Shown here one piece after another: positions 12,437 through 29,066 of a stretch of DNA of 64,000 nucleotides. Below the pieces are notes generated by a model. It worked only from the letters and a program-made list of their open reading frames with translations, did no database searches and was not told the origin of the DNA. The stretch's first letter is position 1; each line of letters begins with the position of its first letter. This stretch comes from Magnetococcales bacterium WMHbin3. Lineage in GTDB: Bacteria > Pseudomonadota > Magnetococcia > Magnetococcales > Magnetaquicoccaceae. Position numbers and translations under genes: made by a program. Location: positions 1 to 64,000 of the forward strand of contig PDZX01000017.1 of the NCBI GenBank assembly GCA_002753185.1, written 5' to 3'.

Positions 12437-13777
12437 TCACTGCCTGCTTGACAAAATACCCTTCCTTGACACGTCCTGGATAATGGCATGCGCGATGCGT
12501 TCCTTGGCTTGTATCTCATAGTGAATGGCATCCTTGTTGTAGACCTGCGCGACATCTGGCAAATCATGTAACACACCGGTGATATTGACGAAAGCGCCTT
12601 GATATTCATCTGCCAAGGTTTGATACATTTGCTCTATCTTGGCATAAAGTGGTTCAGTCTTGACGACATATGGACCTCCAAGGCGGGTGAACTGTCTTGC
12701 CACCCGATAGAGATTCATGGAGAAAAAGTTAATGTTAGGATAATAGAGATGCGGGGACGCATCATGCGGATAATATTTATCAAGTAATACAGGCTGCAGA
12801 TAAGCCGCGAAGCGGATCTTGCGAATGGCCGTCACGCCATGAAAGTCAAGCAGGGAATCCCGGAACGATTTAACCAGGGTATCTTGCATCTTTTCGTCCA
12901 GCACGACGATGTTGGTCTCACCCAGCTTGCGGATATCGTCCAAGGAGGGTGGCGGTTGCAACTGTTTACGCATCAGGGAGAGGAACGTCTTCAGGGAATA
13001 CGGGATGACCAGGGCGAGCTGATTGACGGAGAAATCGTACAATTGCATGGCCAGGACCGCCCCCAATTGGCGCAGTTGCGTGGCAGGTTCGTTCAACTTG
13101 CGCAGGTCGGTATCCAGATGCTGGTGGTAACCATGGTAGTGGCTGTACCAAATCTGAGCTTGCTGTGATCGATATTCCTGATAGCTAAAAATTCGAGTCC
13201 AGACATCGTTCGCGCCATCCAGGGTCAAGACAAGATCGGGTCTCTTGGCGCCGATCCGTTCCAACATGGGGAGAATCCAGTCGGTCAGATAGATGTATTC
13301 ATTAAACGTCGTGTAGCCCATGTGACCGGCGTTCAGGACCACCAGTTCCTGCGCGATTTTCTCCTTCTGAGCATATTTTTTGAGATATTTCGGCCAATTG
13401 TCGCCGACTGTCGTGGAGCCGCCAAAGGTTACGATGAAAAATTTATTATGAGTATCATTAGCATCGCCACCATACCACTCCAAATTGTCGGTCACCCGGA
13501 AACCGAGCACGGGATCGAACGGAAAGGTGAGATAGCCGCCCGTGCGTTGCATGGGCAAGGAACGGGGAAACTCCTTGCGAATCTCCTCGGCACTCATGCG
13601 CAGTTGTGCCGGGAAGCGATCCATGAGGTGATAGGGTTCGTTGAAATGCTGCTGCTGCGGCTTGGCAACCGTCAGCAGCAGGATCACGGAGAAGGTTTCC
13701 AGAACGAGAAGGCCGAATCCGATACCGAACAGCCAAGGCGCCAGCCATTGGGCGGCACGCTTCAATAGGACCATCAT
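12437..13777 (-). CDS. Membrane-anchored SGNH/GDSL hydrolase
   Basis: 446 residues. One N-terminal membrane helix (about 12-38) is followed by an SGNH domain facing the periplasm. Block I is TFGGSTTVGDN (nucleophile Ser121), block II NAGHMGYT, block III GANDVW and block V KDAIHY near the C-terminus, which provides the Asp-x-x-His pair. Family members remove or transfer acyl groups on glycans, lipids or glycopeptides. Start: an upstream TTG extends the frame, but GGAGAG fits the ATG pair at 13777/13774. It is the last gene of the long minus-strand run; a role in deacylating or acylating the cluster product is a guess. Confidence 0.82.
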   Translation of the reverse strand: MMVLLKRAAQWLAPWLFGIGFGLLVLETFSVILLLTVAKPQQQHFNEPYHLMDRFPAQLRMSAEEIRKEFPRSLPMQRTGGYLTFPFDPVLGFRVTDNLEWYGGDANDTHNKFFIVTFGGSTTVGDNWPKYLKKYAQKEKIAQELVVLNAGHMGYTTFNEYIYLTDWILPMLERIGAKRPDLVLTLDGANDVWTRIFSYQEYRSQQAQIWYSHYHGYHQHLDTDLRKLNEPATQLRQLGAVLAMQLYDFSVNQLALVIPYSLKTFLSLMRKQLQPPPSLDDIRKLGETNIVVLDEKMQDTLVKSFRDSLLDFHGVTAIRKIRFAAYLQPVLLDKYYPHDASPHLYYPNINFFSMNLYRVARQFTRLGGPYVVKTEPLYAKIEQMYQTLADEYQGAFVNITGVLHDLPDVAQVYNKDAIHYEIQAKERIAHAIIQDVSRKGILSSRQ

Positions 13778-13805
13778 GTGCTCTCCAGGCAATCAGATCA
13801 GGATG

Positions 13806-14543
13806 TCATGGCAGAAAAAATCGAGGTTTCGTGGGCCCGGTATAGCGGTTCGGGTCGCCATAATCGGCAAAACGATCCGTGAATTGGAAATAAGGCAAGG
13901 CAAAGAGCAGCTCGTTCATCACCACCCGAAAGAGATGAAAACGCAACGCCCAGTCCGCAGTGACTTCATAAGGCTCGGAAACGGAGACAATGGGATTGGC
14001 GACTTCGCTGACCAGACATTTCCTGACCCGCAGACTCTGATCCGTGGAGGTGACGAAAATGACCTTGTTCCAGTCGAACTCCTTGTGCGTCTTCATCATG
14101 TGCAACATATTATCATAATAAAGATCTCGTCCGAGTATTGCATCCTGAACGATGATATCCTGTTCCGGAACACCATAGAGCATAAGCTGCTCTTTCATGG
14201 CCTTGGCGATGGTTTTGCCGCCCGTTCCTTCGATTTCAACGCCGCCAAAGGCGATAATTTTGCCAACGCGCCCTTCCCGATAGAGTTGCAGACCCTTTTG
14301 CAGACGGATCAAACTGGAGATGCACATCATGCCGTTCTTGGTTGGAAAGGGAAAATTGGACGACATGACCACCACCGCTTCACCATGTTCTGGCAATGGG
14401 TCATTGGAGTAAGTCAGATGATGCATGAATGCATTCAACGGGGAAAAGAGAATCAAAATTAACATCAGGTTGGCGGACAGAGAGACGATAACGACTCTTC
14501 TGAATAAGGTGCGCATCCTCCAGGGTGGGGAAAAATTGAGCAT
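13806..14543 (-). CDS. DUF218 (YdcF/SanA/ElyC-type) membrane protein, copy 1
   Basis: 245 residues. One N-terminal transmembrane helix (VIVSLSANLMLILILF) precedes a DUF218 domain: EAVVVMSS, the LQKGLQLYREGRVGKIIAFGG block, GVPEQDIIVQD and VIFVTSTDQSLRVRK. Relatives (ElyC, SanA, YdcF) act on envelope or polyprenyl-linked precursor metabolism, but a reaction is not established. The ATG at 14543 has GAGG five nt upstream, better than the ATG at 14561. A second, similar gene lies at 22840-23484 in the same run, with shared segments LQLYREG and GVPEQ. Confidence 0.82.
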   Translation of the reverse strand: MLNFSPPWRMRTLFRRVVIVSLSANLMLILILFSPLNAFMHHLTYSNDPLPEHGEAVVVMSSNFPFPTKNGMMCISSLIRLQKGLQLYREGRVGKIIAFGGVEIEGTGGKTIAKAMKEQLMLYGVPEQDIIVQDAILGRDLYYDNMLHMMKTHKEFDWNKVIFVTSTDQSLRVRKCLVSEVANPIVSVSEPYEVTADWALRFHLFRVVMNELLFALPYFQFTDRFADYGDPNRYTGPTKPRFFLP

Positions 14544-14584
14544 ATGGTCCTCGCTGGTCATTTATACCAAGAATCAGCCAACCG

Positions 14585-14890
14585 TCAATGAGTGGCCCGG
14601 TAATAGGAATAGAAGATGATGAGGGAATAGGTAATAACAAAAGTGTACAACCATTCCCTCATAATGGCGCCGATCCACCCCATGAGCTTGCCCGCAGGCG
14701 TGGATGAGTGTATAATTGTGATGCCTTTGAAGAACTGATAGAGCAGGGTAAGCAGCATGCCCACAGCGCCACAATACATGGCAATACGAAACAAATGCAA
14801 CGGCGAGTCAATAGTATACCACCTGGTAATCAAATAAACCAAAAAATAAGCAACAATACCTCCAGCCACTCTAAGAGCAATTACATTCAT
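14585..14890 (-). CDS. Small membrane protein of unknown function
   Basis: 101 residues with three hydrophobic segments (about 5-22, 33-52 and 75-93), so most of the chain is membrane. The ATG at 14890 has GGAG six nt upstream; the longer frame upstream has no membrane or coding character. I recognise no family; size and layout resemble small EmrE- or GtrA-like helpers of lipid-linked sugar transport, but no motif supports that. It lies 41 nt from the neighbouring DUF218 gene. Confidence 0.55.
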   Translation of the reverse strand: MNVIALRVAGGIVAYFLVYLITRWYTIDSPLHLFRIAMYCGAVGMLLTLLYQFFKGITIIHSSTPAGKLMGWIGAIMREWLYTFVITYSLIIFYSYYRATH

Positions 14891-15141
14891 CCTAATCTCC
14901 GGTTTTGTATTATACGAAAGAGTCTCGATACACTTCGGGCAACATGTCCACGGGCATCCCATGTGGCTCCACGCGGTGCACGACAGGGTCATAAAGAGCA
15001 AGTCAGCCGATTCCACATCCTCCGCCACGCATCATGGCATGCAAAAAGCCCGTCATGCCCTTGTAACACTCAGCCAACCTACTGAACATAGAGTGAACCC
15101 GCGCAACTTGTCAAGGTTTTCGTCGCATTGCCGTCCATGCG

Positions 15142-15166: not shown

Positions 15167-15174
15167 GCTCCTGA

Positions 15175-16740
15175 TCATCGATCTGTCATAATCATTTTAT
15201 ACTTTGCTGTAAAATTTTTCATTTTCTCATGCACAGCGATTAAAAGATAACGCATCGCCCAATTCTTTCTATTGAGAAATACGCGTGAAATGACCTGCAC
15301 GATCCTGCCGGCAATGTGGTGGTGCGGGATCCATTCGATATGGTTGTTCAAGAAATGCACCACATTTCCAGGAAGGACTCCAATGCATTGCATCAGATTG
15401 ATATATTTTCCATAAATGATTCTATGTTCAGGCAAAAGCTGATAATCTTCAAAGAAAAACAGGCCATCATCGATTTTTTGCCTGTCTTGTTCTTTGATGT
15501 TTCCACACTCGATCGCGGAATCGATGATTTTGGTGCCTGGGAGATACTGGAGCCAATTGATGTTGACGTATGTTGGTCCCCAATCCGCATACCTGTCGAT
15601 CGACTCCTTGATATGATCGAATGTCTCGCCTGGCAACCCGAAAATGTGATCAATGCCAATTTTGATCTCTCTTTCTTTTGCTGCCTGGATCATGCTGGCG
15701 ATCTGCACATTGGACTCCTTTCGCTTGAGAAGGGTTTGCCGCATGTCATCACTGCCTGTCTGCACACCAACAGAAATAACTTTTGTATTTATATCTTTGA
15801 GTAAATCAAGAGAGCGATTATTTAATAGTAATGGATGAGTATCGCACTCCAGAGGCAGATTGATCTCCTTTTTGTAGAGTTTAGCGAATTCCTGCAGCCA
15901 ACTTGGGCGTGCCGTGAATAACTCGTCAATAAAATGGATACATTTCACAGGATAGGCACGAGTCACGGCAACCAGTTCCTCAATGACATTGGCAGGGCTT
16001 CTGGCTCTGAGATGTTTTCTTTCTTCGTGATAGATCTCGTGCAGTGGTTCATTAGAACAAAATGTGCATTTGAAGGGGCAACCGCGCGAGGCGGATATTA
16101 GATATCTTGTGTAGCACAGGGAATTTTTACTAAAATAATCGCTCTTATCCGGAAATGGCAGATTATCAAGGTCATGAATGTATGGCCTTACCGGATTGCT
16201 GAAAACCAGGCCATTCTTGCGATAGCACAAATTCCTGACTTGGTGGAACCTTTTTTGCCCATTGAGTTCTTCGAGCAGTTCCACGATTGCCGCTTCGCCC
16301 TCGCCAATAATTGAAAAATCGACAGAGGGATTTGCCAATAATTTTTCTTTAACCAGTGTCGCGTGAGAACCGCCAAACAAAGTGATTATATTAGGATTTA
16401 AATTTTTAAGACGCCCTGCCACCTGCAGGTAGTAGGCAATATTGAAAGTATATACCGAAAATGCAACGACATCCGGATCGAGCGAAAGTATTTCCTTTAT
16501 CCCTTTTTCCAACCGATCCGAATAATTTGGCCTCCTGATGAAAGCATCGCTGTATGTCGGTTCATAGATAACTTTTGCATTGAATCCATTGCGATTTAAA
16601 ATGCTTTTTAAAATCTGAACACCTAAATTCTCCAACGAAAGATCATAAAAAACTATTTTTGATATCATGGCATATGGCACTCCACAAAGCTCGCGTTGGG
16701 CAGGCAATCCGGCGTCAAGGTATCGGTTGTCGGCAGACAT
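15175..16740 (-). CDS. B12-binding-type radical SAM enzyme, copy 1
   Basis: 521 residues. Residues about 26-160 form a Rossmann-like cobalamin-binding-type domain (LSLENLGVQIL, VVAFSVYTFN, TLFGGSHATLV, IIGEGEAA). The radical SAM core follows with CPFKCTFC (C221, C225, C228) binding the 4Fe-4S cluster, then FIDELFT and the GIDHIFGLPGET block. This BchE/HpnJ/P-methylase class methylates or rearranges unactivated carbons, often in lipids, pigments or natural products. The substrate is not shown by the sequence. The first ATG is at 16740; an ATG at 16668, just before the conserved domain, is equally plausible. It is separated from the rest of the run by the IS inserted upstream of it. Confidence 0.85.
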   Translation of the reverse strand: MSADNRYLDAGLPAQRELCGVPYAMISKIVFYDLSLENLGVQILKSILNRNGFNAKVIYEPTYSDAFIRRPNYSDRLEKGIKEILSLDPDVVAFSVYTFNIAYYLQVAGRLKNLNPNIITLFGGSHATLVKEKLLANPSVDFSIIGEGEAAIVELLEELNGQKRFHQVRNLCYRKNGLVFSNPVRPYIHDLDNLPFPDKSDYFSKNSLCYTRYLISASRGCPFKCTFCSNEPLHEIYHEERKHLRARSPANVIEELVAVTRAYPVKCIHFIDELFTARPSWLQEFAKLYKKEINLPLECDTHPLLLNNRSLDLLKDINTKVISVGVQTGSDDMRQTLLKRKESNVQIASMIQAAKEREIKIGIDHIFGLPGETFDHIKESIDRYADWGPTYVNINWLQYLPGTKIIDSAIECGNIKEQDRQKIDDGLFFFEDYQLLPEHRIIYGKYINLMQCIGVLPGNVVHFLNNHIEWIPHHHIAGRIVQVISRVFLNRKNWAMRYLLIAVHEKMKNFTAKYKMIMTDR

Positions 16741-17061
16741 AACTTTTCGGCTGACATGAGAGCATTTACGATGGGTTGATTATATGTTCTGACGTTTCAC
16801 CGATTTTTTTGCCGCCAAAAAGCGGTCAAATACATCTTTGTTAATAGAAATAATTTTAAATTTATTATATCATACTAATATTACCGTGCCATCAGTCTAT
16901 CGGATACAGCAATAAAAAAATTTAATCGATGCTTGGCTCACCAAGCAAAAAATTCAAAATTCTTATTTGAAATCAATAAAATATCCGTGAACATGGCTCA
17001 CTTTTGGTGTATGCTTCATGGTGCAACCCGTTGAGAATACATCCAAAAGGAGCCATGTTCG

Positions 17062-18558
17062 ATGTTCATTCTACGTCCTTTGCTCGCACCTTTCCAGTCC
17101 GCTTTTTCCAGAACCTCTCTGGGCCAGGAGCGCGCCTCTTGGTTTATCAAGACGCTTCTGGCGGTCATTGTGCCATGCTCATCCGCCATGACCTCGAATC
17201 TCCTGCGCTCCCTGCAAACCTTGTTTGGTTTGGATGTGACCCAGCGACGATTCTACATCTTCATGGCGTCGCCCAAACTTCCTGGCAACGTCTCTGGCTG
17301 ATCCTTTGGCAAATGATCCCATCCCCCCTGACCAATGGTCGGCTGGTGCTGGCGTTGGACGACTTCATCAACCCAAAAACCGGCAAGAAAGTCTTCGGCT
17401 GTGCAACCTTCTTCGACCATGCCGCCAAAGCCAACCAATCCCAGTACCCATGGGCACAAAATGTGGTATGCCTGGGATTACTCAAGCAAATCAAGGAACG
17501 TTGGGCCTGTCTGCCCTTGGCGTCACGTTTCTACCTGCCCAAGACTTCCATCGACCAGAAAACCATCAACGCCACCAAGGGCAAGCAAACAGTGCCGTTC
17601 CAGAACAAACTCGACCAAGCTGTCGCCATGCTGGTGGAAGTAGCAAACTCCTTTACCAATGCCACCATCCTGGTCGTGTGTGACAACTGGTTCGGCAATG
17701 ATGGCCTGCTGAATCCGGCACGCAAAGAACTCGGCTCCAGATTCCACATGCTCTCCAGGCTACGTTCCAACACCGTCGTTCACGCACAGCCGGAACCAAA
17801 AACGAAACCTCAGAGGGGACGACCTTCCAAGTACGGCATACGCCTCGGTTCCATCAGCGAGTTGGCCGCACGCTACCGGGATGAGGCCCAGGAATACTCT
17901 GTCCAGATCTACGGCAAACAACGAACTATCCTGGCGTACTCGTCCGTAGCCATGTTGCCATGTTGCCATGTTGCCATGTTGCCATGTTGCCATGTTGCCA
18001 TGTTGCCATGTTGCCATGTTGCCATGTTGCCATGTTGCCATGTTGCCATGTTGCCATGTTGCCATGTTGCCATGTTGCCATGTTGCCATGTTGCCATGTT
18101 GCCATGTTGCCATGTTGCCATCTCTCAAGGGCATGGTTCGCATCGTTTGGGTCTATCGGCGATCCCAGTGGGTGGCCCTCTTCACCACCGATCATTCTTT
18201 AACCGTCGTCGATATCGTTCAACTCTATGCTGCCCGTTGGAAGATCAAGGCCAGCTTCAAGGAACTCAAGCAGGAAATCGGAAGCCGATGCAGCCAAACG
18301 CGCAATGCCCATGCCGTGACAAACCACATCAATTTCTGCATGATGGCCATGTCCCTGGTCTGGATCTACGCTGCCATGCTGGCCAACATGCCCCAGCGAC
18401 GCCATGCCATCAAAGGACACGACAGTTTCGCATTCTCTGATGTCCGGCGCACTATCGCCGAAGCCATTCTGTCGGAAGATTTTGCACGGGTTTTCACTGT
18501 ACCACAGAATCCTGTGCGAAAATGGCTGACAACAGCATTGCTCAACTTGGCCGCGTAA
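17062..18558 (+). pseudogene. DDE transposase (IS4/IS701-like), broken by two frameshifts
   Basis: The start ATG at 17062 has AGGAG nine nt upstream. The first 70 residues (ending FMASPKLP) run in one frame, then a one-base loss near 17280 shifts to a second frame that continues with WQRLWLILW, LALDDFINPKTGKK (first catalytic Asp region), VVCDNWFGNDGLL (second Asp) and on to position 17950. There, 21 copies of an 8-bp repeat interrupt the gene, and the C-terminal part (YRRSQWVALFTTD, YAARWKIKASFKELKQEIG with the catalytic Glu) resumes in the first frame up to 18558. With a single repeat copy the middle and C-terminal frames join exactly (SSVAMLPSLKG), so the repeat arose by expansion of a native site. 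Confidence 0.8.
17951..18120 (+). repeat. Octanucleotide tandem repeat, 21 copies of CATGTTGC
   Basis: 170 bp made of 21 perfect units plus CA, with no sequence variation. Because 8 is not divisible by 3, each copy gained or lost changes the reading frame of the host transposase; all reading frames stay open through it, reading an eight-residue repeat (MLPCCHVA forward, MATWQHGN reverse). The lack of any base change among copies points to recent or ongoing slippage. Confidence 0.97.
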
Positions 18559-18613
18559 TCCAAAACAACCAAAAAATGGTGAAGCCTCAGTATACGTTGA
18601 CATAATCACGATG

Positions 18614-19636
18614 TCAAGGACATTTTTTTTGTTCTGGATCTGGTTTATTTTGCATACAAAGGCTTGATATCGAAACGCCAGAAATAAGTATATATAAGTA
18701 AACAACAACACTTGTCACAGCCAAAAGAATCTGATCAATTATTCTAAGTACAATTGAGATGGTTGCTGACACTTCCTTGTCGACTCCAAGAAACATCAAG
18801 ACAACGATCCACCCCACTTCCAATATTCCCAAACTATTTGGAGTGATCGAAAACAATATTATTGCATGAATCACAGGATAGGCAATTATAAAGAGCAATG
18901 GATGGATATCGACATCCATTGCCTTAATGGTAAGATAGTATCTAATTATTGGAGCAAGGTAGACGGCAATTGAGTAGACTAGTATGAGTGCGAAATTTTT
19001 TTGATCGAGATATTGTGCCATTGATTCATATAGATCATTTTTATCGGCTATTTCCCTTGGCTTTATTGATATTCTTGCAATAGTCATCTGAATGTTTATT
19101 ATGAAGGCTGAAATTGCAAGACACACATATGATCTTGCATTATACAAAATGACAAGAACGAACACGATACCGAGCAAACAAAATAGAATATTCAAAATAA
19201 CTGGCTCTATGTTAAAAAGCAGGATCACACCCGGTAACAACAAGATGCCAGGAATGGCAAGGTTCAAAATTTGTTCAATAAAAACAATGATAGCTGCATT
19301 TTTCCATGTCGTATTGCCGCCATTTTTAATCATCAGGGCCTTGGTACCCATGGCGCCAATGTTGGGTATCAATAGACTGGAAATAAATGCGGCGAGATAG
19401 GAAAGGCGCAAAAAATGTTTCGGCCATGATATTTCCGGGAGGGAGGAGGATACAATCAATTCCCAACGAATCATGCCAACAAAAATAACTATAAAATGTA
19501 ATAATGCAAAAATAAATAGATCAAAAATTTTGATTCTTTGAATATTAGTCAAGAAGGTGGTCCATGAGACATCGAGCGTATATAAACAGCCATAAATAAT
19601 CAACACCCCAACAAACAATGCAATAATTTTTTTCAT
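18614..19636 (-). CDS. UPF0104 / lysylphosphatidylglycerol synthase TM-like membrane protein, copy 2 of a tandem pair
   Basis: 340 residues, about eight membrane helices, AT-rich. The C-terminal TPNSLGILEVGW segment and the central IVFIEQILNL segment match the flippase-like UPF0104 family (MprF membrane part, AglD, HpnL). Members are thought to move lipids or lipid-linked compounds across the inner membrane, and often sit in lipid or glycan biosynthetic clusters. The start overlaps the stop of the upstream paralogue by four bases (ATGA), so both are made together, possibly as a complex. It ends about 30 bp from the right end of the IS. Confidence 0.82.
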   Translation of the reverse strand: MKKIIALFVGVLIIYGCLYTLDVSWTTFLTNIQRIKIFDLFIFALLHFIVIFVGMIRWELIVSSSLPEISWPKHFLRLSYLAAFISSLLIPNIGAMGTKALMIKNGGNTTWKNAAIIVFIEQILNLAIPGILLLPGVILLFNIEPVILNILFCLLGIVFVLVILYNARSYVCLAISAFIINIQMTIARISIKPREIADKNDLYESMAQYLDQKNFALILVYSIAVYLAPIIRYYLTIKAMDVDIHPLLFIIAYPVIHAIILFSITPNSLGILEVGWIVVLMFLGVDKEVSATISIVLRIIDQILLAVTSVVVYLYILISGVSISSLCMQNKPDPEQKKCP

Positions 19637-20644: not shown

Positions 20645-21991
20645 TCACGCGCCTCTCGAACCGCTCATGGGTTCTTGTGGTTCCTTGTGCATTTCCGGGT
20701 ATAGCACAACCTGGTTTTGCGTCTCGTACTCAATCAGTGCTTCACGAAATTCCTCGATCTTCAAGTGTGCCTTGCCCTCCATTGCCGGATAATAGATATT
20801 CATGAAATCCTTGTCCTGCGTCAGAAAGCATGGCTGAAATCGGCTGAACGGGGTCTGTTTCAGTGCGCGTTCCCGAATGGAGGCCAGCGACTCCTCCATG
20901 ACGTTGCCAAAATAGATATGCATGAGCGCACAATGGATCACATCCCCGTATGGCGTGAAATTGAGCACTTCCTTGGTGCCGGGACATCCCCCGCGCTTGC
21001 CCACGTGCACCGTTTCCGTGTCATGATGCAGATGGGCGAATCCATAAGGGGCGATGATATGACGAAATGCCTTGAAATCATCATCATCCAGCATCAGTGC
21101 CCGATCATCCTTGAAGTTGCCGACCGCCTTGGCGAAAATCAGATGCAACAGAATATGCTCTTCTTCCGCAAACTCGAGCAGTTTCAGCAATCCGTCCGTA
21201 TAAAGATTCTTTTTGTGCACGACGGTATTAATGATCGGCTTGATCCCGTAGCGTTTGCACAATTCGATCCCCTTCATGGCACGGGCGAAGGAGTCCCGCT
21301 TGCGCCGGAAAAGATCGTGCAACTCCGGCACCCCATTGTCGATGCTGAAGGCGACCACCGTCACTCCCAACTCGGCACACCGCCTGGCCCGCGGTTCGTC
21401 GAACAGATAGCCATTGGTGGTGATGTTGATGTGATTCCATCTGGGTTTGCATGCCTCAATTATCTTGTCCCAATTCTTTTTGACAAACGGCTCTCCACCT
21501 TCGATGCCAAAGGCCGTCGCACCCAGTTTCATCGCCTCCTTGACCACCCGTCGGTAATCCTCCACATCCATCTCCCTGCGTGTACTGCGCTCCTGTAACT
21601 CCTTGCACAGGCAGTGGCTGCAATCGAAATTGCAATGGAACGTGGGACAGAATTCGCAGCCACGCAGAATGTGCTTGTCGATCTTCAGGATGGCATAGAT
21701 CTTCGCAAGGATCATGTTGCGCGCCAGACGCACCAGAAACAGCGGTTTGCTGAAGTGCAGGCCATATTTGAACAGCTTGTGATAGATCCGCGCCTTCTTC
21801 AACCAGGGGGGAGTCTGGCGGATGACGCGAATTTCCTTCAATTGACTTTGCCTTTCCGACTCTGCCAAAATCTCGCGAACACGTTGGGCCTCGACCGGGT
21901 CGGGATAAAGGGAGTCGATCATCCCTTCGATCTGCGTATCCTCAGGAGGCTGTGGTCCACATTTCTGCGTGCTGTTGCGTTCTGCCAACAT
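20645..21991 (-). CDS. SPASM/twitch-type radical SAM enzyme, paralogue A
   Basis: 448 residues from the ATG at 21991, which has AAGGG six nt upstream and begins one base after the stop of the SDR gene. An N-terminal region of about 115 residues without known domain precedes the radical SAM motif CNFDCSHC (C120, C124, C127), with extra cysteines close by in GCEFC and HCLC. The core carries IEGGEPF (SAM contact) and ITTNGYLFDE; the C-terminal GGCPGTKE, YGDVIHC, FGNV and PCFL positions suit one auxiliary Fe-S cluster. It aligns through nearly its whole length with the gene at 27759-29066. The substrate is unknown. It is closer to HpnH/SPASM enzymes in layout than to B12-type ones. Confidence 0.85.
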   Translation of the reverse strand: MLAERNSTQKCGPQPPEDTQIEGMIDSLYPDPVEAQRVREILAESERQSQLKEIRVIRQTPPWLKKARIYHKLFKYGLHFSKPLFLVRLARNMILAKIYAILKIDKHILRGCEFCPTFHCNFDCSHCLCKELQERSTRREMDVEDYRRVVKEAMKLGATAFGIEGGEPFVKKNWDKIIEACKPRWNHINITTNGYLFDEPRARRCAELGVTVVAFSIDNGVPELHDLFRRKRDSFARAMKGIELCKRYGIKPIINTVVHKKNLYTDGLLKLLEFAEEEHILLHLIFAKAVGNFKDDRALMLDDDDFKAFRHIIAPYGFAHLHHDTETVHVGKRGGCPGTKEVLNFTPYGDVIHCALMHIYFGNVMEESLASIRERALKQTPFSRFQPCFLTQDKDFMNIYYPAMEGKAHLKIEEFREALIEYETQNQVVLYPEMHKEPQEPMSGSRGA

Positions 21992-21992
21992 G

Positions 21993-22817
21993 TCAATCCC
22001 TTGGATATCCATTGATGATTTTATGGTTGTTCCTGGCAATGACCTTGCGGAGCAGGCCAGGCGCAAAATAGCTGAGTTGTTGACCTATAAAATCCTTGAA
22101 TGTGCTCAAATTTACTTCGCTCTTGTTCTGTTCGATGGCGCTCAGAATCGTGTTCGCGACAAATGCCGGATCCCGTCCATGCTCGCCCGTGGGCTTCGTA
22201 TAGCCTGGTATGCGATCATCCACCTGCGTGTTTTTCCAATAGTTCGAACGAAAACTGCCAGGCCTGATCAGCAACGTCCTTACGGGTTTGCCTGTCAATT
22301 CGATCTGCAGACTCTCGTGGACGGCGCCCAGGGCGGATTTGGATGCCGCATATGGCGAAACGCCGGGAAAGGCGTGATACATGATGGAACTCATGATGTT
22401 GCCGATCACCCCCTTGCCCTGGCGTAACATGTCGGGCAGGACGCATTGCATCAAGGCAACCGGCGCCAAAAAATTGGCGCGCATGCTTCGTTCGTAAAGT
22501 TCCACGGGGATGTTCTGCACGAAGCCCGCCACCTGGTAACCCACATTGTTGATCAGAATGGTGGGGGCCTTGCCGACATCCTGCTTGATTTGCGCATACA
22601 GGGTCGGAATCCGCTCCACCATTTCCAGGTCCAGTTCATAGGGATATGGTGTGCCTCCGCGTTGCGCCACCTCCTTGGCCACATCCCCGAGCCGGTCGGG
22701 CGAACGGGCCAGCATGATCACGCCGGCCTTGCGCGCTGCCGCCTCCAGCGCCAGGGCGCGACCAAGGCCGGAAGTGGTGCCTGTCACTAATAAAACTTCA
22801 TCTTGCCAGGGATACAT
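21993..22817 (-). CDS. Short-chain dehydrogenase/reductase
   Basis: 274 residues. TGTTSGLG (13-20) binds the dinucleotide cofactor, INNVGY is the structural motif, and SSIMYHAFPGVSPYAASK holds the catalytic Ser, Tyr and Lys. After the fold a tail of about 60 residues is not typical of small SDRs. It probably oxidises or reduces a hydroxyl or keto group on the cluster product, possibly a lipid, since DltE/long-chain SDRs have the same size. It ends one base before the start of the downstream radical SAM gene and so is co-translated with it. Confidence 0.87.
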   Translation of the reverse strand: MYPWQDEVLLVTGTTSGLGRALALEAAARKAGVIMLARSPDRLGDVAKEVAQRGGTPYPYELDLEMVERIPTLYAQIKQDVGKAPTILINNVGYQVAGFVQNIPVELYERSMRANFLAPVALMQCVLPDMLRQGKGVIGNIMSSIMYHAFPGVSPYAASKSALGAVHESLQIELTGKPVRTLLIRPGSFRSNYWKNTQVDDRIPGYTKPTGEHGRDPAFVANTILSAIEQNKSEVNLSTFKDFIGQQLSYFAPGLLRKVIARNNHKIINGYPRD

Positions 22818-22839: not shown

Positions 22840-23484
22840 TTAAATATAACCGCGCAAACGGAAATAGACGATCGCCAGAAATTCCCGCGTGATTTCCCGG
22901 AACAGCAAAGGGCGTTCCGCCATGGTGTAGGCATGGTATTGATAGGGTTCCGTAGCCACAACCCGTCCTTTCACGTCCATTTTATCCAGAATCTTGCGCA
23001 CCCGGTAGGTGTGATAGGAGGATGTCACGAAAATCGCCTGATCGAAATCGAAACGGTGTTTGAACTCCGTCACCAGATGGCGCAGATCGTTGTAGGTGTT
23101 CATGGTCTGATCGTCCACTAATATCGCCTGCTCCGGAACCCCATGTGAAAGCCACTCCTCCCGCATGGCCTGGCAGGTTGACATGGGATATCCTTCATGA
23201 CGATATCCTCCCGCGCAGATGAGGAACGGCGCATAACCTTCCCGATAGAGTTGCAGCCCCTTTTTGACACGGGACAGTGAGTTCATCCCCGGTTGTCCGT
23301 TGCGGTACATCTCGCATGGCAACACCACGATGGCCTGACTGGCACGCGGGGCCTCGCTGAAATTCAGCACATGGTAAAGCCCCTCCGCTATCGGGGTGAC
23401 CAGAACCATTATTACAAACATATTGATGCCAAGGCTGCCAATCAATAGATATTTTTTAATATTATTGTAATTTTTCAAGTACAT
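22840..23484 (-). CDS. DUF218 (YdcF/SanA/ElyC-type) membrane protein, copy 2
   Basis: 214 residues. One N-terminal helix (LLIGSLGINMFVIMVLV) and a DUF218 domain: QAIVVLPC, LSRVKKGLQLYREGYAPFLICAGG, SHGVPEQAILVDD, TYNDLRHL and AIFVTSSYHTYRVRK. It resembles the product of 13806-14543 throughout, including a terminal YFRL/YFQF segment. Its first 23 bases overlap the 3' end of the upstream B12-type radical SAM gene. Two DUF218 copies in one cluster suggest two steps or two handled intermediates. Confidence 0.83.
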   Translation of the reverse strand: MYLKNYNNIKKYLLIGSLGINMFVIMVLVTPIAEGLYHVLNFSEAPRASQAIVVLPCEMYRNGQPGMNSLSRVKKGLQLYREGYAPFLICAGGYRHEGYPMSTCQAMREEWLSHGVPEQAILVDDQTMNTYNDLRHLVTEFKHRFDFDQAIFVTSSYHTYRVRKILDKMDVKGRVVATEPYQYHAYTMAERPLLFREITREFLAIVYFRLRGYI

Positions 23485-24901
23485 ATCTATTTACAGTCAC
23501 CTTGAAGGCATTTTGGATTTCCAGTTTGTATTTGGGCTTCAGATATACGAGAAACACCAGCAAATCCCACAGAAAACGCAACCCTTTGAGCTGCAGCCCG
23601 CGGGTGAGGTACTTGCGAATCTGATACCGGCGCATCCGGCCGTAGAGGGCGTGAATCTCTTGCAGCGTGGCATGTTTGGACCTGATCACGGGAGTTGAAT
23701 ACATCACCTGTGAACGTTCCAGTTGCTCTTTCTCGATCAGGTTTTCCTTGACGCACAGATCCTTGATTTCCGTTCCTGGCAGGGGCATGAGAATGGAAAA
23801 CATGATGGTGTCCGCATCGATCTTGCGCGCCAGTTCCAGACTGGCTTCCATCATTTCGATGGTCTCAAAGGGCGCGCCAATGATGAATTGACAGGAGAGC
23901 AGCAACCCGGAGCGTTTGATGATGTCAACCGCCCTGTCGATTTGCTCCCGGCTCATGCGGCGTTTGTAGACGTCGTTGCGAATGGCGTCATCGGCGGCTT
24001 CGATGCCCATGCCCACCTGGTAACAACCCGCATCCTTCAGCGCCCGAATGACCTCTTCGGTGACCAGATTGGCGCGCACACTGCACGTGAAACGAATCTT
24101 GCGATGATATCCCCGCGCAATGTATTGGCGACAGAATTCGAGGGTCCATTTGCGGTTCAGAATGAAAATATCGTCAATGAAATAAATGTATTTGAATCCA
24201 CGTGACGCGTAACGGTCAATGGCGGTTTGCACCTCATCCAGGACGCTCTCCACGCTGCGTTGGCGCACGTACTTGCCGGTCATGGTTTTCTTGAGAATGT
24301 GATTGCTGCAATAGGTGCACGAATAGGGGCAGCCGCGACCGGACATCAGAGTCAGATGATTGTTATTGAATAAAAAATAGGTCTCGAGATCGTATTGACT
24401 CCAGTCCGGAAAGGGGAGGATATCCAGATTCTCCAGCAAGGGTCGGGCGGCATTCCTGACCACCGTGCCGTGCTCCTTGAACCAGATGCCGGCTATGCCA
24501 TGGCAATTCAACCCCTGGTCGAGTATTTCACGCAGCGCGAACTCTCCTTCTCCTGTGCAAATGATGTCCACCTCCGGATGGCGAATCACATCTTCCGGGT
24601 CGAGAATGACATGGACGCCTCCGAAAATAATGGGGAGATTCCAGGTCTGCTTGATGAAACGTGCGATGCGAAGGGATTGCAGAACATCGAACGTCATCAC
24701 GGAAAAACCAACCAGATCATAGTGATGACCATCGAGACGCACGTGCAGTTGGTGCTGCCAGTTCTCCTTGTGAAAGGTCAAATCCACAATCTCCGCGCGA
24801 TGAGAACTGCACTCATTGATGAATGTGGCAAGCGCGGCCATGTTCAGGTTGGGTGATCCCACCCGACCTTCGATATTGGGGACAATCAGTAATATGTTCA
24901 T
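23462..24901 (-). CDS. B12-binding-type radical SAM enzyme, copy 2
   Basis: 479 residues. The N-terminal 140 residues are a cobalamin-binding-type domain (ILLIVPNIEG start, LVGFSVMTFD, IIFGGVHVILDPED, IICTGEGE). The radical SAM core starts with CPYSCTYC (C191, C195, C198), followed by YIYFIDDIF, VGMGIEAADD and MPLPGTEIKDL, all typical of the BchE/HpnJ-like group. Its C-terminal ~90 residues contain a hydrophobic stretch (FLWDLLVFLVYLKP) that could lie on the membrane, consistent with a lipid substrate; this is inference. The stop lies inside the DUF218 gene. It shares architecture but only moderate similarity with copy 1 at 15175-16740. Confidence 0.86.
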   Translation of the reverse strand: MNILLIVPNIEGRVGSPNLNMAALATFINECSSHRAEIVDLTFHKENWQHQLHVRLDGHHYDLVGFSVMTFDVLQSLRIARFIKQTWNLPIIFGGVHVILDPEDVIRHPEVDIICTGEGEFALREILDQGLNCHGIAGIWFKEHGTVVRNAARPLLENLDILPFPDWSQYDLETYFLFNNNHLTLMSGRGCPYSCTYCSNHILKKTMTGKYVRQRSVESVLDEVQTAIDRYASRGFKYIYFIDDIFILNRKWTLEFCRQYIARGYHRKIRFTCSVRANLVTEEVIRALKDAGCYQVGMGIEAADDAIRNDVYKRRMSREQIDRAVDIIKRSGLLLSCQFIIGAPFETIEMMEASLELARKIDADTIMFSILMPLPGTEIKDLCVKENLIEKEQLERSQVMYSTPVIRSKHATLQEIHALYGRMRRYQIRKYLTRGLQLKGLRFLWDLLVFLVYLKPKYKLEIQNAFKVTVNRYVLEKLQ

Positions 24902-24907
24902 GCAATT

Positions 24908-25549
24908 TCAATCTTGCGTGCCTGCGCGACGTTCGAAAAGTAGCAGCCTGGACGTGTCCATGATCAATGGCTGATTCCTGATGACGGAAAAGCCATGCCG
25001 ATCAAAACAATCAATAAAATCACGCATACGATAATTATATTCCCATACGATCTTGTCCCCGCGAACGAGATACGTGACCGAAAAAAGCAGCCGCCCCAGA
25101 AACGTGTCGTGATTGGGCTGCATGATGAGTACGTATCGAGTGCTCAGGCGCATCAAATGGCGGGCAAACGGTTCAAAATCGAGAAAGTGTTCCAGCATTC
25201 CTTCGCTGGCCACCAGGTCGTATTGCCGGGTCTCCTCCTCCACCTTGCACACCTTGGCGTTGAAGCCCTTCCTTTTGCAGGCGGCTATGGAGTGCAAGGA
25301 GACATCAATGCCCATGTAATCCAATTTGGCTGCGTGAAACAAACCGAGCAGATGGCCCCAGCCACATCCGGTATCCAGTGCGGATTTGATCCCTTTCTGA
25401 TGTTGCAGAAAATCGATCGCATCCTGCAGGGCGCGCATGCGGATCGGTACGAAAATGCGCCCGACAAAGGTCAGTTTCTGCTCTTCGGACCAGTGTTCAT
25501 CCCAAACCTCGTAAAGCTTTTCGGCGCCATGGGGAGCATTTTCGTTCAT
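24908..25549 (-). CDS. SAM-dependent class I methyltransferase
   Basis: 213 residues. ALDTGCGWGHLLGLF is motif I of the class I fold, and GIDVSLHSI and DLVASEGMLEHF are motifs II and the post-II region of the UbiE/Methyltransf_11 type. The end LLLFERR is the usual last strand. It could methylate an O, N or C atom of a small molecule. Gaps are 6 nt to the downstream gene and 9 nt to the upstream radical SAM gene, so it is inside the operon. No strong ribosome-binding site is seen before the ATG. Confidence 0.85.
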   Translation of the reverse strand: MNENAPHGAEKLYEVWDEHWSEEQKLTFVGRIFVPIRMRALQDAIDFLQHQKGIKSALDTGCGWGHLLGLFHAAKLDYMGIDVSLHSIAACKRKGFNAKVCKVEEETRQYDLVASEGMLEHFLDFEPFARHLMRLSTRYVLIMQPNHDTFLGRLLFSVTYLVRGDKIVWEYNYRMRDFIDCFDRHGFSVIRNQPLIMDTSRLLLFERRAGTQD

Positions 25550-25558: not shown

Positions 25559-26674
25559 TCACTGCATCGGAGGTGAAATGGTCGGTCGCGCGGTTCCGGT
25601 CGGGTAATCCCGCAACTCTTCAAAGACCTCTTCCGCCCGTATGGGATAGGATTCGGCGTTGTAGGTCTTGGAGAGGTAGCGTGAAATGAAGGTTCGATCC
25701 TCGGCAGGGGGGCAACCGTTGAAATTTTTCTTGAAATAATGAATATGGCGCGCCTTGACCAGAATATCCTCCAGGGCCTCTTTTCTGACATTGCCCAGGG
25801 AGATGTGGATCGTGTTGCAAGGCAGGACATCGCCGTAAGCGGTGATGGCGATCACCTCATCGATGGCGGGACAGCCCCCGCAACGATTGCCATAATTATC
25901 TCGTTTCAGGAACGGATACTGTTTGTGCAGCTCCAGCATGCGTTGCACATCGTATTCCGAAATGAGCGCATCCTCTTGGCCTTGCAGTGCCCCCAGGGGA
26001 ACGGCGGCCTTGAATGCCACCCGAATCCGGTGCTCGATGGCATATTCCACCAGTTTCTGAAAATTATCCGTGCGGGTGAAATCCCGATGAATGAACATGG
26101 TGAAATGATAGGCCATGCCCAATTTTTCGCAGATGGCCATGGTATTCATGACACTCGCATGGACACCGGTTTGTCCCCGTTGTTCGTCATGTTCCTTGGG
26201 ATTCCAACTGTCCAGGGAAACATTGATCTTGTCGATGCCCAGTTCCATGTAGCGGCGCACCTGTGCCTCCGTAATGCCCCATCCATTGCTGGCCAATGTG
26301 ATGTAGGTCCTTTCCGGCCGGCAGGCCTTGACCAGTTCCTCGAATTCATGGGAGAGACGGCTCTCTCCGCTCACGAAGTCGAACGAGAGTGCGCCGAGGC
26401 GCAAACACTCTGCAATTACCTGTTTTTTTTCTTCCAACGTCAGCATGGGGTCGCCTGAGTTGTTGAAATTTTTTTCATAACAATGTTTACAACTTAAATT
26501 ACATTTGTAGTGGGTATGAAATAAAACAGAACGAATCGGCCTCCGAAGATCTGATGGGGCGAACAGCACGCGCAATGCATAACGTAGCAAAAATAAAGGT
26601 TTATTTTTGATCAGCCCTGGTGTGACCAAAATCAGCCTGTTATTGAGTTTTTGTAAAAATAATGGTATCTGCAT
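25559..26674 (-). CDS. Radical SAM/SPASM-like enzyme
   Basis: 371 residues. CNLSCKHC (C58, C62, C65) binds the radical SAM cluster; FVSGESR, ITLASNGWGI and INVSLDSWNP are core strands. The C-terminal RCGGCPA, YGDVLPC, SLGNV and NGCPP cysteines suit one or two auxiliary clusters. An N-terminal amphipathic or hydrophobic stretch (LFLQKLNNRLILV, LFLLRYALRVLF) is shared in kind with both large paralogues and may touch the membrane. It is a third, more distant member of the SPASM-like set here. AGGAG lies seven nt before the ATG. The 89 nt to the next upstream gene are the largest internal gap in this part. Confidence 0.85.
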   Translation of the reverse strand: MQIPLFLQKLNNRLILVTPGLIKNKPLFLLRYALRVLFAPSDLRRPIRSVLFHTHYKCNLSCKHCYEKNFNNSGDPMLTLEEKKQVIAECLRLGALSFDFVSGESRLSHEFEELVKACRPERTYITLASNGWGITEAQVRRYMELGIDKINVSLDSWNPKEHDEQRGQTGVHASVMNTMAICEKLGMAYHFTMFIHRDFTRTDNFQKLVEYAIEHRIRVAFKAAVPLGALQGQEDALISEYDVQRMLELHKQYPFLKRDNYGNRCGGCPAIDEVIAITAYGDVLPCNTIHISLGNVRKEALEDILVKARHIHYFKKNFNGCPPAEDRTFISRYLSKTYNAESYPIRAEEVFEELRDYPTGTARPTISPPMQ

Positions 26675-26763: not shown

Positions 26764-27735
26764 CTACCGGGCTGGCGTCCCCATGGCGGTACGCGAGGCC
26801 TTGCGAATCGCCTCCCGCCAGTCGCCGATCGTGTACCCCAACTCGGTACAGGCCTTTTGTGAGGTGTAATACATCTTGCGCGACACCACATCCCCGGTGT
26901 CCCGGTTGACCGGCGGAACCCGTCCCAAAGCACCAAACACCACTTCCACTCCCCAACCCATCACTGGAAGCAGGAATCCAGGCAAGGGTATCTGCGGCGC
27001 CTTGCCGCCCGTGGCCCTGGCGATCTCCTCGAAATAATCCTTGAAAAGCACATTGTGTCCGCCCAGCAAATAACGCTGGCCGCTACGCCCCTTTTGCCCG
27101 CACAGGTAAAGTCCGTTCACCAGATCGTCCACATCGGCCAGACAGACCCCTCCGGGCGGATACAGTTTCATCCGTCCCTGGGAGATGGCCACGAAATTGT
27201 TTTTCTGTGTTGGCTTCATGGCATGTCCGCCAACGACATTTCCCGGACAGGCGATCACGATGTTCGCGCCCTGGGATACCTCCTGGAGCACCAACTGATC
27301 CGCCTGATACTTGGAGGAGCCATAAGGATCGTGCTGCCGGTTGAATGGCAGGGTTTCGTCCGCGACCTGTCCGCGACCAGGACTGCCCACCGCAGCAATC
27401 GAGCTGACATGCACCAGCCTTACCCCACGCTTGCGCGCCAGACGGGCGATCCGTTGCGCGCCGTCCACATTGATGGCCTGGCGCTGCGCCTCGTCCCTTG
27501 GCAGGGGCGAGGTGCAGGCCGCCAGGTTGAAGACCACATCACTTTGGGCAATGCATTGATTCAGACGCGCTTCGTCGCCGATCTCCCCAACCTCCGAATG
27601 GAACGGTATGGAGGCTAGATTTTCCAGCGACGAGGAGGCGCGATGATAAACCGTCACCTCCTCGCCGCGTCTGGCGAGATAGATCGCGAGGTTGCTGCCG
27701 ATGAACCCGTTTCCGCCGATCAGCAAGTTACGCAT
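26764..27735 (-). CDS. NAD-dependent epimerase/dehydratase (HpnA/dihydroflavonol-reductase-like)
   Basis: 323 residues, extended SDR. LLIGGNGFIGSNLA binds NAD(P), VSSIAAVGSP and YGSSKYQAD hold the catalytic Ser and Tyr-x-x-x-Lys, and CPGNVVGG plus DVDDLVNGLYL are typical of the HpnA/3-beta-HSD branch. It would oxidise or epimerise a nucleotide-linked or lipid-linked sugar or a sterol-like hydroxyl. The ATG at 27735 follows GAGG; an in-frame TTG that would overlap the upstream stop is less likely. It lies 23 nt after the radical SAM paralogue B gene. Confidence 0.85.
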   Translation of the reverse strand: MRNLLIGGNGFIGSNLAIYLARRGEEVTVYHRASSSLENLASIPFHSEVGEIGDEARLNQCIAQSDVVFNLAACTSPLPRDEAQRQAINVDGAQRIARLARKRGVRLVHVSSIAAVGSPGRGQVADETLPFNRQHDPYGSSKYQADQLVLQEVSQGANIVIACPGNVVGGHAMKPTQKNNFVAISQGRMKLYPPGGVCLADVDDLVNGLYLCGQKGRSGQRYLLGGHNVLFKDYFEEIARATGGKAPQIPLPGFLLPVMGWGVEVVFGALGRVPPVNRDTGDVVSRKMYYTSQKACTELGYTIGDWREAIRKASRTAMGTPAR

Positions 27736-27758
27736 TGCCCTCAAGCCCTCTGTCCCGA

Positions 27759-29066
27759 TCAATTGTTCCGCAACTCGGGATAGACGACTTTGTTGTTCTT
27801 CTCTTCGTAGATGCGCAGGTCATCGCGGAACTCCTGCACCGTGAAGTGCGGCTTTTTCTGGAGCAGCGGATAGTAGACGTTCATGAAGTCGCGGTCATCC
27901 GCGAGGAAGCAGGCGTGATAATCGCCGAACGGAGTCGTTTTGAACGCCTGCTCGCGGATCTCCTTCAGCGGCTTCTCCATCACGTTGCCAAGATAGATGT
28001 GCATGTTGGCGCAGTTGAGCACGTCCCCGTAGGGGGTCATGTTGATCATCTCCTTGGTGCCCGGGCAACCGAACTGTTTGCCGTAGTTGTAGTTCAGGTG
28101 CCGTTGCACCCAGGTGTACGGATCGATGACCTTATGGTAATTGGCGATATCCTCATCGGACATCATGACATCCTTGTCCTTGAAGTTGCCGACCCCCTTG
28201 GCGAACAGGGTGTTGATCAGCAGTTGCTCGCGCTCGCTGAATTCCAAAAGCTCACGCCAGTGATCCGTGTAGAGGTTTTCTCTGTAGACCACGGTGTTGA
28301 TGATCACCTTGATGCCGTACTTGCGGCAAAGCTTGATGCCTTCCATCACCTTCTGGAAGCTGCCGTAGCGCATGCGGAAGAGGTCGTGCAGTTCGGGAAT
28401 GCCGCTATCCAGGCTGAAATTGATGGTATCCACGCCCAGCTCGGCGCATTTCTTGGCCTTGGCCTCGTCGAACAGGAAGCCGTTGGTCGAAATGACGATA
28501 TGGTTGTAGTGGGACTGGCAGGCCTCCAGAATTTCCGCCCAGTACTGCGAGACGAAGGGTTCGCCCCCTTCCAGGCCGAAGGTGACCGCGCCCAGATCCA
28601 TGGCCTCCTGGGTTACCCGTTTGTAATCCGGCGGCTCCATCTCGCGGCGGGTTTTGCTCTCGTCCAATCGGATGCACAGGCAGTGCTGGCAACGGAAGTT
28701 GCAGCGATAGGTCCCGGCGTACTCGATGCCGCGCAGAATGTATTTCTTGATGCCGAATGTATTGTAGATCTTGCCCATCAGAACATTGCGGGCCAGCCGG
28801 AACGGATAGAAGGGTTTTTTCCAGTGAATGCCGTAGCGGAAGCGCAACCGCCACAGGTTGATGAACTTCTTGACGGGATCCACCGAACGCACATGCTTGA
28901 CCTCGCGCCGGTTCGTCTGTTCGATCGCCTCGTCGAGCAGCTTGTTGACCTTGACCTGCTGGGCCGGATCCTTGAATACATGCTTGATGTTGGCGCGCAT
29001 AGTCTCCAGCACGCTCGGGTTGTCAATCTTGGTTTCCTCGAATTTTTCCGGTATCAAATTTTCCAT
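27759..29066 (-). CDS. SPASM/twitch-type radical SAM enzyme, paralogue B
   Basis: 435 residues. Like paralogue A (20645-21991) it has about 118 N-terminal residues before CNFRCQHC (C122, C126, C129), the unusual LEGGEPF SAM-contact motif, STNGFLFDEAKA, LDSGIPELHDLFR and a C-terminal GCPGTKE, YGDVLNC, LGNV, ACFL set. Long identical blocks (CAELGV, PELHDLFR, YGIK.IINTVV, TPYGDV, MHIY.GNVME) show it is a duplicate of A with a kept function class. It is the first gene of the minus-strand run. AGAGAG lies before the ATG. It is less AT-rich than the later genes. Confidence 0.86.
   Translation of the reverse strand: MENLIPEKFEETKIDNPSVLETMRANIKHVFKDPAQQVKVNKLLDEAIEQTNRREVKHVRSVDPVKKFINLWRLRFRYGIHWKKPFYPFRLARNVLMGKIYNTFGIKKYILRGIEYAGTYRCNFRCQHCLCIRLDESKTRREMEPPDYKRVTQEAMDLGAVTFGLEGGEPFVSQYWAEILEACQSHYNHIVISTNGFLFDEAKAKKCAELGVDTINFSLDSGIPELHDLFRMRYGSFQKVMEGIKLCRKYGIKVIINTVVYRENLYTDHWRELLEFSEREQLLINTLFAKGVGNFKDKDVMMSDEDIANYHKVIDPYTWVQRHLNYNYGKQFGCPGTKEMINMTPYGDVLNCANMHIYLGNVMEKPLKEIREQAFKTTPFGDYHACFLADDRDFMNVYYPLLQKKPHFTVQEFRDDLRIYEEKNNKVVYPELRNN

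Follow-up and report, generated by a model that had tools for sequence, protein, structure and literature searches.

What is made by a long run of minus-strand genes, rich in radical S-adenosylmethionine (SAM) enzymes, in a genome of the Magnetococcales? The run lies at positions 12437-29066 of the window, a stretch of 64,000 nucleotides from Magnetococcales bacterium WMHbin3 (contig PDZX01000017.1, assembly GCA_002753185.1). An earlier note, made from the sequence alone, had read it as one pathway to an undescribed lipid or lipid-linked product. Comparison with related genomes points more to sugars. The best explanation found is a horizontally exchanged cassette, seated in a variable slot, that makes and exports an unusual cell-surface glycoconjugate, and we judge this explanation about evenly balanced between right and wrong. 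The window's own genome (a 4.60-Mb assembly of 157 contigs, 93% complete) is called G000 below; other G numbers denote relatives.

A cassette in a variable slot

The 14 cassette genes are numbered g1 to g14 by rising coordinate. They are given here with three associated genes, with scores in bits and with guanine-cytosine (GC) fractions where these are used below.

10455-12416, plus strand: 653-aa polytopic membrane protein of an orphan family, putatively GT-C-like, with a DD motif (136-137) and a soluble C-terminal domain
g1, 12437-13792, minus strand: SGNH/GDSL hydrolase with an N-terminal hydrophobic segment (PF13472 35 bits, cut-off 32.9)
g2, 13806-14561, minus strand: DUF218 (ElyC/SanA/YdcF-type) membrane protein (PF02698 39.6 bits, cut-off 27.6)
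g3, 14585-15028, minus strand: small membrane protein of no reliable family (no Pfam match)
g4, 15175-16740, minus strand: B12-binding radical SAM protein (PF02310 64.5 bits, PF04055 81.5 bits; GC 0.42)
17004-18440, plus strand: DDE_5 transposase-like open reading frame (PF13546 68.7 bits), which splits the run
g5, 18614-19636, minus strand: UPF0104/LPG_synthase_TM flippase-like protein (PF03706 83.5 bits, TIGR00374 65.7 bits; GC 0.36, the cassette minimum)
g6, 19633-20625, minus strand: second UPF0104 flippase-like protein (PF03706 81 bits, TIGR00374 55.6 bits; 4-bp overlap with g5)
g7, 20645-22066, minus strand: radical SAM protein with a SPASM/twitch-type C-terminus, a paralogue of g14 (50%)
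g8, 21993-22817, minus strand: short-chain dehydrogenase/reductase (SDR; PF00106 119.9 bits; 49% homologue on G003:C252)
g9, 22840-23484, minus strand: second DUF218 protein (PF02698 70.1 bits)
g10, 23462-24901, minus strand: B12-binding radical SAM protein (best NCBIfam model HpnJ, 165.3 bits, cut-off 577.6)
g11, 24908-25549, minus strand: class I SAM methyltransferase (PF13489 47.3 bits)
g12, 25559-26674, minus strand: radical SAM protein with a SPASM-type C-terminus (PF04055 60.7 bits, PF13186 29.3 bits; 41% homologue on G003:C252)
g13, 26764-27762, minus strand: HpnA-like extended SDR (HpnA 211.3 bits, cut-off 367.65; listed start TTG, ATG at codon 10)
g14, 27759-29066, minus strand: radical SAM protein with a helical N-terminal domain and a SPASM/twitch-type C-terminus, more conserved than any other cassette gene examined
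29661-30368, minus strand: YczE-like membrane protein (NF052291 67.3 bits, cut-off 205; GC 0.54)

All 14 minus-strand open reading frames were found at the span that had been claimed, and the enzyme classes listed earlier agreed with the Pfam domains. These comprise one SGNH/GDSL protein, two DUF218 proteins, two B12-binding and three SPASM-hit radical SAM proteins, two LPG_synthase_TM (UPF0104) proteins, an SDR, an epimerase-type SDR, a methyltransferase and one small membrane protein that matches no Pfam family. The SPASM matches of g7 and g12 exceed the Pfam cut-off, and that of g14 reaches 21.4 bits against 21.5. All five radical SAM proteins carry the CxxxCxxC motif. With 45 Radical_SAM matches in the 4.60-Mb genome, 0.16 would be expected in a stretch of 16.6 kb, and five were observed (Poisson P(>=5) = 8e-7, or about 2e-4 when corrected for the number of such stretches); the Poisson figure serves as a guide only, because genes of an operon are not independent.

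Not every gap is as small as described earlier: g4 and g5 lie 1,873 bp apart (16741-18613). Since the plus-strand transposase-like frame occupies this gap, the run consists of two blocks of 4 and 10 genes. The ends that had been given to the run were too narrow, and the cassette extends to the 653-aa protein gene on one side and the YczE-like gene on the other. The GC fraction of g1-g14 is 0.36-0.61, and that of six genes outside (PGI, PEPCK, amidase and FGE; aldolase and the gene at 31941) is 0.60-0.68. The 653-aa protein gene (0.45, next to a gene of 0.645 on its far side) and the YczE-like gene were counted with the cassette because their GC resembles the inside. The YczE-like gene lies 594 bp upstream of g14 on the same strand, and its homologues in G003 (82%) and G036 (77%) stand directly upstream of the g14 homologue.

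The closest relative is the congener G001, with a PEPCK 96% identical. Both flanks are in the same order in the two genomes: PCMT, PGI, PEPCK, amidase, FGE, 653-aa protein, cassette, aldolase, the 31941 gene and a helicase-associated gene. Identity is 94-96% for PCMT, PEPCK and aldolase and 57-89% for the other flanking proteins (57% for the 653-aa protein). The slot of G001 holds a smaller and different cassette of five genes, namely a UPF0104 gene, a SPASM radical SAM gene (41% to g14), two B12-radical SAM genes (28-30% to g10) and a DUF218 gene (34%). A slot with conserved flanks and swapped contents, as is characteristic of a variable surface-glycan locus, was therefore observed in one species pair. 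The comparison covers G000 and G001; other congeners with both PEPCK and aldolase carry them on separate contigs.

The relationships of g14 were then set against those of PEPCK. Outside its own family, g14 is 77% identical to its homologue in G036, 76% in G021 and 71-73% in G041, G033, G037 and G045, while inside the genus the values fall to 48-51% (G003) and 40-41% (G001). PEPCK shows the opposite pattern: identity is 77-96% across six congeners and drops to 64-67% across six sister-genus members. This pattern points to horizontal exchange between Magnetococcales lineages. Among named loci, g14 homologues of 74% and 73% identity were found on contigs of Magnetococcales metagenome-assembled genomes, together with two distant ones (32% and 24%).

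Side features of the ends were also noted. A minus-strand hairpin followed by a T run lies at 29127-29143, between the YczE-like gene and g14, and may be an attenuator; the region has 16 terminator-like matches, no excess over the shuffle mean of 19.4. Farther out, a 1280-aa protein at 33466-37308 has ten helicase-associated (HA) domain matches and is 85% identical in G001, and a 1007-aa protein at 48-3071 has calcineurin-like phosphoesterase and NACHT-type NTPase matches.

Distribution of the cassette and sugar-type genes in relatives

Presence was scored at E<=1e-80 for g14 and E<=1e-30 for g13 among 48 genomes of the order, G000 included, and g14 was also sought in a phylum sample of 398 genomes with few candidates scored per genome. 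Homologues of g14 occur in 9 of the 48, and the 9 found among the 398 all belong to this order. The HpnA-like g13 occurs in seven order genomes, every one within the g14-positive set of nine (hypergeometric P = 5e-7; 2.6e-6 without G000; the kinship of the genomes is not corrected for in these values).

The earlier proposal of one linked gene set is borne out by this co-occurrence and by families that recur together in relatives (radical SAM, B12-radical SAM, DUF218, UPF0104 and methyltransferase genes), and it is not upheld for conserved co-occurrence of all 14. The full set of 14 families was found at none of the relatives' loci examined, and g3 was seen in none of the 19 tabulated loci, one of which belongs to the window's genome (19 of 22 loci were tabulated; L031, L032 and L033 were left out). 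Homologues of g9 (34-38%) lie within the g14 loci of G001, G033, G037 and G041, and homologues of g11 (39-47%) are found in G021, G033, G037, G041 and G003. A g2 homologue (39%) is cut off by the end of contig G003:C243. Contig G003:C252 carries homologues of g1, g8, g11, g12 and g13, two B12-radical SAM genes and a carbamoyltransferase gene within 12 kb; the g1 homologue (45%, E<=1e-12) is the single one among the 47 other genomes. No exact end overlap of 16-300 bases was found to join C243 and C252, which were treated as two contigs.

Separation of the genes in relatives had been named as a sign against a single pathway, and it was found in part: g13 is on another contig than g14 in G021, G036 and G045. 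In G021 and G036 this second g13 locus is itself a radical SAM cassette. Genes of the relatives were called by a rough codon-usage method, which placed the HpnA-like gene of G003:C252 on the wrong strand and failed to call the g11 homologue of G021; tblastn showed both errors. By sequence comparison, the Magnetococcales cassettes are mosaics.

Sugar-type genes were found in the loci holding g14 or g13 in seven of the eight relatives with g14, the exception being G001. A glycosyltransferase family 2 (GT2) gene with a DUF2304 gene is next to g14 in G021 and G036 and about 3 kb away in G033, and DUF2304 also stands at the start of G003:C252. A second GT2 gene occurs in G021, in G003 and in the second locus of G036, and the same three places hold a GHMP kinase gene. 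DegT aminotransferase genes are present in G033, G041, G037 and G045 and in the second loci of G021 and G036. A NodU-like carbamoyltransferase gene was seen in G041 and on G003:C252.

The best models for GT2 are the polyprenyl-phospho-GalNAc synthase PpgS (94.8 bits, cut-off 370) and AglJ (80.9 bits, cut-off 325). For the GHMP kinase the best model is the heptose kinase HddA (145 bits, cut-off 600), and among solved chains a D-glycero-D-manno-heptose 1-phosphate kinase is nearest. The chains nearest to the DegT protein are scyllo-inositol transaminase and perosamine synthetase. These sequence matches are remote, yet all point to sugars or cyclitols. In G045 (L062:9564-12082), a PfkB-cytidylyltransferase fusion with the domain order of HldE-type ADP-heptose enzymes follows an HpnA-like gene (78% to g13) at a distance of 47 bp. 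This fusion beside g13 is a hint of a heptose substrate.

The cassette has features of O-antigen and capsule-type loci: conserved flanks whose contents are swapped (in one pair), a low GC fraction, a mosaic exchanged across families, and GT2, DegT, GHMP kinase, FkbM, carbamoyltransferase and acyltransferase genes in relatives. It differs from them in that radical SAM genes dominate, no Wzx, Wzy or nucleotide-sugar operon was recognised in the window cassette, and the flanks are central-metabolism genes. The nearest match in the literature searched is a plasmid block of Brachyspira hyodysenteriae in which, in the available part of the paper, a radical SAM gene accompanies a glycosyltransferase (PMC4267127).

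Radical SAM enzymes and their partners

None of the five radical SAM proteins reached the cut-off of any of its best 25 NCBIfam models, and the top scores were 16-33% of the cut-offs. By these model scores they fit no named subgroup; placement in known subgroups with unrelated substrates had been named earlier as a sign against one pathway. The best model for g4 is ApyD (122.7 bits, cut-off 750); its HpnJ score is 117 against 577.6. The solved chains nearest to g10 are 9ccb and AprD4 (6fd2). B12-radical SAM genes of the general g10 type are common, being found at E<=1e-35 in 37 of the 48 order genomes; none of them is a close g10 orthologue (best 38%).

The alignment of g14, g7, g12 and ten relatives has the radical SAM cysteines and three further cysteines (C334, C352 and C386 of g14) invariant in 13 of 13 sequences. 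The three extra cysteines presumably belong to a reduced SPASM or twitch domain. The fold model of g14 (predicted local distance difference test, pLDDT, 70.6) places a helical N-terminus ahead of the radical SAM barrel, with strands beginning at residue 113. SkfB, PqqE and SuiB rank first in a Foldseek search with this model, and viperin, MoaA and BlsE are also high.

The 653-aa protein beside the cassette gave no Pfam match (E<=10) and no NCBIfam match. Its family is found in 8 of the 48 order genomes and 8 of the 398 phylum genomes, all Magnetococcales. In ten aligned family members the first large loop carries a D137 that never varies and a D136 that hardly does, and seven full-length homologues show 10-13 hydrophobic segments by simple hydropathy. 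In polytopic proteins, an acidic DD/DxD motif at this place marks the GT-C class. The family profile gave three weak matches against the PDB (best E 0.097 over 40 residues), and a fold model built from two sequences was uninformative (pLDDT 35.8). Five of the eight carriers are g14-positive (P = 0.003; 0.011 without the query genome), and the gene lies inside the g14 locus in four of these five (G000, G001, G037 and G041). SGNH or radical SAM genes are near the family gene in several carrier genomes. Systems in which PpgS/AglJ-type GT2 proteins work with GT-C proteins are similar in two respects, the GT2 and DUF2304 genes at the g14 locus of three relatives and the polytopic DD-motif protein beside the cassette. 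They are dissimilar in that the window cassette has no GT2 gene and the membrane protein belongs to an orphan family, limited to the order in the sample searched.

For the remaining genes, the listed start of g1 is TTG, with ATG at codons 6 and 7. The small protein g3 has weak ammonium-transporter matches (18 and 16 bits, cut-offs 343 and 657) and an ATG at codon 47 that may be the true start. YxxxK and GGxGFIG are kept in six of six aligned g13 sequences. For ElyC, a DUF218 protein, the available part of PMC8609368 reports inhibition of the synthesis of phosphoglyceride-linked enterobacterial common antigen, and no DUF218 or SGNH link was found in the part available of PMC11898649.

Proposed pathway and alternative explanations

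The following pathway is inferred as a whole, in its catalytic steps and substrate as well as in the way the product is flipped and the GT-C class of the 653-aa protein. A sugar, perhaps derived from heptose, would be carried on a nucleotide or on a polyprenyl or phospholipid carrier. The enzymes g8, g13, g7, g12, g14 and g11 would epimerise, reduce, dehydrate or methylate it, and the B12-radical SAM enzymes g4 and g10 would methylate or rearrange its unactivated carbons. The UPF0104 proteins g5 and g6 would then flip the lipid-linked product, and the GT-C-like 653-aa protein (10455-12416) could transfer it to an acceptor in the envelope. The DUF218 proteins g2 and g9 may regulate the flux of carrier-linked glycan, and the SGNH protein g1 may trim or add acyl groups in the periplasm.

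Several observations weigh against a glycoconjugate product. The weightiest is that no recognised glycosyltransferase or sugar-activation gene, and no DegT, GHMP kinase or carbamoyltransferase gene, is present in the window cassette or in the five-gene cassette of G001, so the substrate proposed here stays conditional. All pointers to sugars come from relatives, with family scores far below cut-off (HddA 145 of 600, PpgS 94.8 of 370). No Wzx or Wzy match was found among the proteins scanned (the window cassette and part of the relatives' genes), and UPF0104 proteins stand in their place. The Foldseek order of the g14 model does not favour sugars; the matches are generic to SPASM/twitch-type enzymes and uninformative as to substrate. 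The slot swap is documented in a single species pair, G000 and G001. The contig of G045 with g13 shows no other cassette gene, and g13 has histidine-biosynthesis and other genes as neighbours there. The GT-C assignment of the 653-aa protein is a proposal from its motifs, UPF0104 and HpnA-like proteins occur in lipid pathways too, and insertion of the transposase may have broken up or silenced the operon.

The chief rival is a membrane lipid other than a hopanoid, whose acyl or isoprenoid carbons would be functionalised at the membrane by the radical SAM enzymes before the UPF0104 proteins flip the finished lipid. HpnA and HpnJ are indeed the best NCBIfam models for g13 and g10, g5 and g6 are flippase-like with weak matches to HpnL (20.7 and 34 bits, cut-off 195.65) and, for g6, to MprF, and the window's 14 genes include no recognised glycosyltransferase. 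An acyltransferase_3 gene lies near g14 in one relative, G021; this type is also known from sugar acylation. The same 14 genes, however, contain no FabF, acyl carrier, cyclase, prenyltransferase or acyltransferase domain, the scores for hopanoid classes and for the TIGR04072 lipid class are well below cut-offs, and the relatives' cassettes are accompanied by sugar-type genes. Because seven of eight relatives with g14 carry genes of glycosyltransferase, sugar-aminotransferase or sugar-kinase type, the lipid product favoured by the earlier note is weaker than a sugar product, and we regard it as unlikely, although less so than the other rivals.

Lipid pathways of known type were compared as well. 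Ladderane-type clusters with type II fatty acid synthesis (FASII) genes in Kuenenia and Desulfotalea have, in the part of the source available, several radical SAM genes and SAM methyltransferase genes in one cluster (PMC2649909). The cassette resembles them in this respect and differs in having no FASII genes among its 14. A ladderane product was rejected since no FASII synthase domains were found there and TIGR04072 gave 100.4 and 114.6 bits against 360. Islands of hopanoid (hpn) genes also contain a B12-radical SAM gene, an SDR annotated as sugar epimerase and a UPF0104 membrane protein. According to the available part of PMC12583986, HpnA and HpnL have no established function, and HpnJ makes a cyclitol ether from bacteriohopanetetrol (BHT)-glucosamine, thereby rearranging a lipid-linked amino sugar. 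This chemistry of the family that g10 matches best was counted, with the ElyC report, in favour of a glycoconjugate. The resemblance to hopanoid accessory proteins that had been noted earlier holds for the broad classes and not for close membership, as the HpnA, HpnJ, HpnH and HpnL scores are 11-57% of the cut-offs (for example, HpnH 54.2 bits against 225.05 for g14). The cassette genome differs from hpn islands in the missing cyclase candidate, the low scores and the sugar-type genes of relatives.

A soluble specialised metabolite, or a ribosomally synthesised and post-translationally modified peptide (RiPP), was considered less probable than a lipid. The SPASM enzymes would here act on a peptide or an aminoglycoside-like molecule, which would then be exported. 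Three SPASM-type enzymes are present, the B12-radical SAM proteins score 122.7 and 137.3 bits with the RiPP model ApyD, the maturases SkfB and SuiB are among the top structural matches of g14, and the nearest solved chains include AprD4 (aminoglycoside) and BlsE (cytosylglucuronate). A RiPP recognition element (RRE) domain has a wing, whereas no RRE-like wing was seen in the helical N-terminal domain of the g14 model. No conserved peptide frame was found in the gap beside g14, the one gap searched (594 bp to the YczE-like gene here, about 60 bp in G036 and G003), and no peptidase or ATP-binding cassette transporter domain occurs in the 14 genes.

It is still less probable that the window copy is a decaying island, hit by a transposase and mosaic in content, that makes nothing. 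The transposase-like frame between g4 and g5 is interrupted by an exact tandem array of the 8-bp unit GCCATGTT at 17949-18121 (173 bp, 21.6 copies); past the array, homologous-looking text resumes in another frame when read by eye, in the manner of a contingency locus. The whole set is moreover shared by no relative's locus examined. Against decay, none of the 14 frames is broken, and the radical SAM proteins keep their cysteines. Promoter-like matches directed towards g4 are present on the minus strand at 16892-16864 (10/12, between the transposase and g4) and at 18617-18589 (11/12, in the 3' end of g5), with the total of 29 not clearly above the shuffles (23.5, sd 5.6).

A hopanoid island with a lost cyclase is highly improbable and was rejected: g4 and g10 resemble HpnJ, g13 HpnA, and g5 and g6 HpnL, but all hpn scores are below cut-off, and the PF13243 search upheld the earlier statement that no squalene-hopene cyclase is present, with no candidate in G000 (93% complete, so that absence is not certain) and weak matches in seven of the 48 order genomes (best 29.2 bits, three over the 26.1 cut-off). 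Anti-phage defence was likewise rejected: PADLOC, applied to 10 of the 14 proteins, gave nothing beyond generic radical SAM matches (pVip up to 62 bits, PDC-M51A up to 71).

The literature searched, which excluded most subscription journals, gave no paper whose title or opening of the abstract describes such a radical SAM cassette; no description of Magnetococcales envelope glycans was found under Magnetococcales with lipopolysaccharide. No paper pairing UPF0104 with radical SAM was found, and for DUF218 with radical SAM a Mycobacterium genome comparison was the single result. A more specific form of the glycoconjugate explanation is offered tentatively, as a possibility that we think rather less likely than the general one. 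The cassette would belong to an undescribed system in which a lipid-linked sugar derived from heptose is rebuilt by stacked B12- and SPASM-type radical SAM enzymes and set on the surface by a new GT-C-like family, with cassette contents swapped in the manner of an O-antigen. The rebuilding could be C-methylation, deoxygenation or ring rearrangement, comparable to the action of HpnJ on BHT-glucosamine.

The cassette brings to hand several radical SAM subgroups that are uncharacterised but have a candidate substrate class that can be defined, and its orphan membrane family is a candidate glycosyltransferase. It also sets the unexplained HpnA, UPF0104 and DUF218 families in a context, and it carries a warning that, where no cyclase is found, HpnA-, HpnJ- and HpnL-like matches should not be taken as hopanoid or lipid genes. 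If the proposed system is real, radical SAM chemistry would be a main tool by which bacterial surface sugars are diversified in the Magnetococcales.

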